From: Phycisphaeraceae bacterium
GTDB taxonomy: Bacteria > Planctomycetota > Phycisphaerae > Phycisphaerales > Phycisphaeraceae
DNA: 64,000 bases
Direction: 5' to 3'
Assembly: GCA_028277745.1 (NCBI GenBank)
Contig: JANQFR010000072.1
Span: 1 to 64,000, forward strand
Below the pieces are notes generated by a model that was not told the origin of the DNA, did not search any database, and worked only from the letters and a program-made list of their open reading frames with translations. A program made the position numbers and the translations under genes. Shown here piece by piece: positions 28,661 through 28,820 of the stretch. Position 1 is the first letter of the stretch; each line of letters begins with the position of its first letter.

Positions 28661-28820
28661 AAGCACGGCGAATGCCGGTGGAACTACATTGAACCGAGTG
28701 CCGGGAGACCGGCGTGCGGGTAACCAATCCCGCCCGGCCGCGCAGCGCGGCCGGTGGCGCAATCAGACGCGCTCGGAGCCCTTACGGGTTGTCTGTTTCT
28801 CCAACCCTTGTCGCCGTCTT
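28661..28820 (+). ncRNA. Y-RNA-like unit Y1 with permuted tRNA-Leu-like module (YrlA-like)
   Basis: Y stem GGCGA (28667-28671) / TCGCC (28811-28815), with conserved CGAATGCCG, ACTACA and AACCCTTGTC. Inside, in permuted tRNA order: anticodon stem 3' strand CCGAG (28694-28698), long variable arm GCCGG-GAGA-CCGGC (28700-28713), T-arm GCGGG-TAACCAAT-CCCGC (28716-28733), acceptor-like stem CCGGCCGC / GCGGCCGG closed by a short loop (28734-28754), a Leu-type D-arm with GCG/CGC (28757-28770), and anticodon stem 5' strand CTCGG (28772-28776) pairing with CCGAG. The long variable arm and the D-arm spelling GGTGGCGCAAT resemble tRNA-Leu. The T-loop is degenerate. Confidence 0.85.

Follow-up and report, generated by a model that had tools for sequence, protein, structure and literature searches.

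A circularly permuted class II tRNA-Leu-like module in a Y RNA of a planctomycete rsr-rtcBA operon

In the rsr operon of a Phycisphaeraceae bacterium, we found an RNA (Y1) with an internal module (28694-28776) that has the form of a class II tRNA-Leu in circular permutation. All positions are those of the window, the whole 64-kb stretch of DNA that was analysed. Y1 is a bacterial Y RNA of an rsr-rtcBA RNA-repair operon, with an outer stem bearing the usual Rsr (Ro60)-binding motif, and its effector module is an entire tRNA-Leu body in permuted order, the RNA ends exiting from the anticodon arm. The structure of Y1 is well supported, while its function is a matter of inference.

The regulator gene rtcR faces an operon made of rsr, a cluster of at least five Y RNAs (Y0 to Y4), rtcB and rtcA. 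The closest named rsr match comes from a Phycisphaerae MAG (76% Rsr identity). The features are as follows:

25103..26704, minus strand: rtcR, sigma54 activator with an RtcR domain (Pfam RtcR, 4.9e-81)
26846..26862, plus strand: likely sigma54 -24/-12 element TTGGCACGTGCCATGCT, just upstream of rsr (pattern scan, one mismatch to the consensus used)
26872..28506, plus strand: rsr, Ro60 orthologue (Pfam TROVE and vWA_Ro60; listed with a GTG start, likely an ATG near 26920)
about 28560-28645: Y0, short Y RNA directly 3' of rsr, whose module is the small hairpin ACUUU-UAGGC-AAAGU
28665..28817, plus strand: Y1, whole RNA, Y stem and permuted tRNA-Leu module (Y-stem motif scan; RNA fold; YrlA model)
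about 28842..28937, plus strand: Y2, a tRNA-like Y RNA of shorter length, its T-arm preceded by a hairpin (fold; rotated tRNA-Leu model R1, below)
28956..29079, plus strand: Y3, a canonical YrlA that mimics a permuted class I tRNA (Rfam RF02553, 73.4 bits)
29124..29262, plus strand: Y4, YrlA-like, also mimicking a permuted class I tRNA (RF02553, 63.2 bits)
29954..31492, plus strand: rtcB, RNA ligase (Pfam RtcB, 2e-102)
32472..33503, plus strand: rtcA, RNA 3'-phosphate cyclase (Pfam RTC, 2.7e-80)

The sigma54 element is assigned mainly on its position, since it carries one mismatch and matches of this kind are not uncommon across the window. Two further operon genes have no Pfam match, one before rtcB (29284-29991) and one between rtcB and rtcA (31489-32475).

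Y1 adjoins rsr and has the long end-to-end stem of Y RNAs with the conserved AAUGC, ACUACA and UUGUCG motifs; in a motif scan, its stem motif was common to Y3, Y4 and relatives. The two strands pair over the outer and inner segments, with one U-U mismatch:

28665..28684, plus strand: Y stem 5' strand, with outer ACGGCGA (28665-28671), conserved AAUGC and inner GGUGGAAC (28677-28684)
28795..28817, plus strand: Y stem 3' strand, with inner GUUUCUCC (28795-28802), UUGU and outer UCGCCGU (28811-28817) (RNA fold)

The Rfam YrlA model (RF02553) matches Y1 over its full length (36.8 bits, E 3.9e-6) but falls short of the 69-bit gathering score, which Y3 of the same cluster passes. T- and D-arms are present, and the T-loop is UAACCAAU in place of the UUCRA of YrlA. 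Because of the score, we file Y1 as a bacterial Y RNA and not as a strict RF02553 member.

Within the Y stem, the tRNA-like elements follow one another in this order, with a UG dinucleotide between the acceptor and the D-arm and a single G between the D-arm and CUCGG:

28694..28698, plus strand: anticodon stem 3' half CCGAG (R1 alignment; helix covaries at 4/5 pairs)
28700..28713, plus strand: class II variable arm GCCGG-GAGA-CCGGC (R1 alignment; helix 2 of the covariation test)
28716..28733, plus strand: T-arm GCGGG-UAACCAAU-CCCGC with a non-canonical 8-nt loop (sequence; nearly identical loop in the homologue L149)
28734..28754, plus strand: acceptor-like stem CCGGCCGCG/CGCGGCCGG, 9 bp, triloop CAG (fold; helix 4, covarying at 6/7 modelled pairs)
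28757..28770, plus strand: Leu-type D-arm GCG-CAAUCAGA-CGC, lacking G18G19 (R1 alignment)
28772..28776, plus strand: anticodon stem 5' half CUCGG (R1 alignment)
28777..28790, plus strand: hairpin AGCCC-UUAC-GGGUU, which caps the anticodon arm (fold; L092, L181 and L164 also have a hairpin there)

The minimum free energy fold recovers the Y stem and all tRNA-like helices (-78.7 kcal/mol, z -3.0). Its energy was equalled by 1 of 200 shuffles, and none of 400 dinucleotide shuffles reached the anatomy score of Y1. A preliminary description of this DNA had given the same order with all stems paired, including the anticodon stem across about 80 nt; the sequence, the fold and the shuffles bear this out, the two halves spanning 83 nt. 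It had also placed the Y stem where the anticodon loop would be, which oversimplifies the arrangement: the anticodon loop is indeed absent, but the hairpin at 28777-28790, overlooked in that first reading together with the non-canonical T- and D-loops, directly follows CUCGG and so caps the anticodon arm, which the Y stem joins from the 3' side. At the same position, the hairpin loop is GUAA in L092, GAAA in L181 and UGCG in L164, whose Y RNA is Leu-like and of class I; the class II relatives L149 and L170 have no hairpin there. Y1 thus presents five tRNA helices, the long variable arm among them, in a Leu-like body whose acceptor is sealed by the triloop and whose anticodon arm is capped by the tetraloop.

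The relation to tRNA-Leu was examined with a covariance model (R1) built without any Y RNA, from nine real class II tRNA-Leu (four of this genome, five from other loci) rotated to start after the anticodon loop. Its best match in the window is Y1 (28694-28776, 39.9 bits, E 1.3e-8), followed by the remaining Y RNAs (32.9 bits, 27.2 for Y2, and 22.0); the top match outside the Y RNAs scored 15.0. A model of the same tRNA-Leu set in native order (R2) reported nothing on Y1 in the window up to E 10, and does detect the tRNA-Ser at 23830. R2 also matches Y2 at 28840-28909 (31.7 bits, E 2.5e-6), which suggests that two folds may be possible around its palindrome UCGCGA. When Y1 was compared, with the anticodon loop masked, to the 46 tRNAs called by ARAGORN in the genome, the closest four were the four class II tRNA-Leu; in the same ranking, Y3 and Y4 preferred other tRNAs over tRNA-Leu. 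Y3 is closest overall to tRNA-Asp(gtc), and its module keeps UGUUAA-UCCGA beside the anticodon-stem 5' half UCGGA, as would be seen in a tRNA-Asn with its break point within the anticodon loop. ARAGORN called no tRNA on the rotated Y1, probably because of the non-canonical T-loop.

We ran R1 over the rsr loci and also over 397 genomes of the class, using the Y motifs to remove ordinary tRNAs and tandem tRNA junctions; a first-pass anatomy scan had missed L149 and L170, and the rotated model was used instead. In the 397 genomes, most matches were tandem junctions or ordinary tRNA-Leu genes. Four relatives that keep the plan of Y1 lie in other rsr operons, three in Planctomycetota and one in Verrucomicrobia, so that Y1 is not unique and represents a recurrent class (neighbouring genes by tblastn):

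L181, genome G404: class II Leu-type Y RNA, R1 65.9 bits; rsr, rtcR, rtcB and rtcA around
L092/L187, genome G532: class II Leu-type Y RNA, 59.2 bits; rsr and the end of rtcR (the L092 contig ends soon after)
L170/L190, genome G049: class II Leu-type Y RNA, 51.8 bits; rsr and rtcA around
L149, verrucomicrobial genome: class II Leu-type Y RNA, 35.4 bits; rtcR, rsr and rtcB around

Across Y1 and these four, 99.1% of the aligned cells are paired and 13 of 24 pairs show double-sided changes, a count matched by none of 500 shuffles, although with five sequences, which are few, aligned by fitting to the model, the estimate leans toward structure. Sliding the pairing partners abolishes the signal. Together with the R1 match and the blank R2 result, this covariation upholds the earlier identification of Y1 as circularly permuted, class II and Leu-like, with both a variable arm and an anticodon stem. 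In G011, the closest relative in which an rsr operon is present, there are several Y RNAs and none of class II, and Y1 is therefore not essential to the system.

R1 also matches tandem tRNA junctions (L082, L106, L130), in which a 5' half comes after a 3' half, and the class II Y RNA of G404 sits within a tRNA array, beside tRNA-Leu. We infer that permutation of the Y1 type may have arisen by a Y stem capturing such a junction, from which exactly the permutation of Y1 would be expected. The same two observations, and the missing class II Y RNA in G011, could also fit a functionless relic in decay, formed when a Y stem fused to a tandem tRNA-Leu junction. We regard this as unlikely: every modelled pair is intact in Y1, covariation extends over five genomes, and both odd loops recur jointly in another phylum.

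These loops, UAACCAA(U/C) in the T-arm and AAUCAGA in the D-arm, are common to the planctomycete Y1 and the verrucomicrobial L149, and in Y1 the tRNA elbow is altered on its T-loop and D-loop sides alike. The missing TUC and GG motifs might point to incipient decay, against which the near-identical loops in the verrucomicrobial homologue argue. The exact pattern of the two loops occurred in Y1 alone among 392 genomes of the phylum and had no match in viral contigs; blastn searches of plasmids and phages with Y1 as query yielded short chance matches only. The loops also bear on the partners of the RNA. TruB and DusA act on the T- and D-loops of canonical YrlA (PMC8394870), and L092, L181 and L170 keep UUCGA T-loops, in line with the proposal of the preliminary description that Y1 may recruit tRNA-modifying enzymes, of which TruB and DusA would be examples. 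In Y1 and L149, however, UAACCAA replaces UUCRA and the D-loop GG is absent. The motifs that these enzymes presumably need are thus missing, Y1 would probably escape both, and we consider their recruitment very unlikely.

How much of this is new can be judged against known RNAs. YrlA (RF02553; Salmonella YrlA, 6CU1) shares with Y1 the Y stem with AAUGC and ACUACA, the T-arm, the loop-closed acceptor, the D-arm, the permuted order and the position between rsr and rtcB; Y1 differs by its class II variable arm, its 5-bp anticodon stem with a capping hairpin, its 9-bp acceptor and its non-canonical T- and D-loops. That YrlA is circularly permuted with respect to tRNA has already been published (structure 6CU1; see the discussion in PMC11472068). 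In the Rfam YrlA consensus, a paired stem of 3-4 nt encloses a 4-nt variable loop, so that an anticodon-stem remnant is not new either. The novelty claimed in the preliminary description therefore narrows to the class II variable arm, which we did not find in any Y RNA in the part of the Y RNA literature that was searched; it would be the only new element of Y1. Compared with the tRNA disguises described for Y RNAs, that of Y1 is both rarer and more complete.

With class II tRNA-Leu itself, Y1 shares all helices, the Leu-type D-stem GCG/CGC and the variable arm, and it differs in being permuted, with a sealed acceptor and without an anticodon loop or the TUC and GG motifs. Permuted tRNA genes, in which the 3' half also lies ahead of the 5' half, occur in some algae and archaea, and Y1 could in principle be such a gene giving a working tRNA-Leu after processing. 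Those genes are processed to tRNA, whereas Y1 keeps its Y stem, has only this stem and the tetraloop hairpin between its anticodon half-stems, and lacks a free CCA end and a tRNA-like T-loop; ordinary tRNA-Leu genes are also present in the genome. We rejected this explanation, which is extremely improbable, on the absence of an anticodon loop.

From its sequence and setting, we lean toward viewing Y1 as an Rsr-tethered tRNA-Leu bait or adaptor, made upon tRNA damage by the RtcR/sigma54 operon. Cleavage of tRNA would lead RtcR to switch the operon on, and Rsr would bind the Y stem of Y1. Its head, presumably neither chargeable nor decodable and probably not modified at the elbow, may engage a protein able to read class II tRNA bodies via the variable arm, acceptor and D-stem. 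Y1 could then compete with tRNA as a bait for a tRNA-attacking enzyme, or dock a tRNA-handling enzyme onto Rsr. The same operon type in Salmonella responds to tRNA fragments, and the bait idea has been raised before for Salmonella YrlA, which is not cleaved by the nuclease and for which no inhibition was measured (PMC7790460). Lacking an anticodon loop, Y1 would be no bait for anticodon-reading enzymes. We slightly favour bait over docking because each operon has varied mimics, several of them copying anticodon loops.

Alternatively, Y1 may be an adaptor only, its tRNA-like head linking Rsr with either an exonuclease or RtcB, for the degradation or repair of damaged tRNA. PNPase tethering has been described for bacterial Y RNAs, e.g., in Deinococcus (PMC8394870, PMC7790460), whose Y RNA, the Rsr-PNPase tether, resembles Y1, by its published description, in being a Ro60-bound noncoding RNA encoded near rsr; here, rsr and rtcB share one operon. 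A purely adaptor role is a real possibility, if a somewhat improbable one, and it leaves the Leu-specific body and the great variety of tRNA modules unexplained.

This variety was surveyed in 213 Y RNAs collected by motif in rsr loci. Anticodon-like loops (7 nt, U33, a purine at 37, just 5' of the T-arm) are present in 44 of the 94 long Y RNAs with a T-arm (7.9 expected) and in 16 of the 56 short ones (1.6 expected). They occur at L077, L078, L087, L103, L104, L119, L126, L135, L170 and others, and some of these Y RNAs are little beyond an anticodon stem-loop. All these module assignments, and those that follow, were made by eye and with simple rules. Other modules are Leu-like, class II and apparently opened in the D-loop (L152:6076-6203 in Rhizobiales; L109 near 3423, with anticodon AAG), and a class II module with a Ser-like D-arm lies in L134 near 6195.

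A few modules resemble rRNA by comparison with motifs that we take to be those of 23S rRNA: long matches to helices 69-71 (CGTAACTATAACG..CCTAAGGTAGC) occur at L089:6324, L109:3778 and on the minus strands of L170 and L043, and one match to the sarcin-ricin loop (TAGTACGAGAGGA) at L109:7509. A panel of 9-mers from conserved rRNA showed no overall excess (16 against 17 expected), and the value of the resemblance would lie in the few long matches only.

Arrays of up to 25 tRNA genes lie in or beside the rsr-rtcBA operon, with Y RNAs interspersed, in L077, L082, L088, L095, L103, L106, L119, L126, L137, L170, L178 and L212. In the genome of Y1, several unusual tRNA genes form a run at a contig end (L069, contig C64:51600-52700). 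The same genome has a second, divergent Ro60-like gene (L179:10262-11821, contig C76; also L043/L054 in G024), with a vWA_Ro60 match below the cut-off (E 2.8e-4). This gene type has its own Y-like RNAs with a different stem motif, GCTTACAAAC; those of G024 carry tRNA-like, anticodon-loop and 23S-like modules.

We tentatively suggest, as a possibility that we hold doubtful, that rsr operons encode a library of Ro60-tethered copies of RNA-toxin target sites, serving as bait during RtcB/RtcA repair, with permuted whole tRNAs of various kinds (Y1 being the class II Leu member), bare anticodon stem-loops, and pieces of 23S helices 69-71 and of the sarcin-ricin loop among its members. For Y1 itself, a class II tRNA-Leu head with no anticodon loop and an altered elbow narrows the candidate partners to readers of the variable arm, acceptor and D-stem. 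More broadly, the varied tRNA modules, many of them with anticodon loops, tie Ro60 to tRNA damage and repair beyond a resemblance of T- and D-arms.
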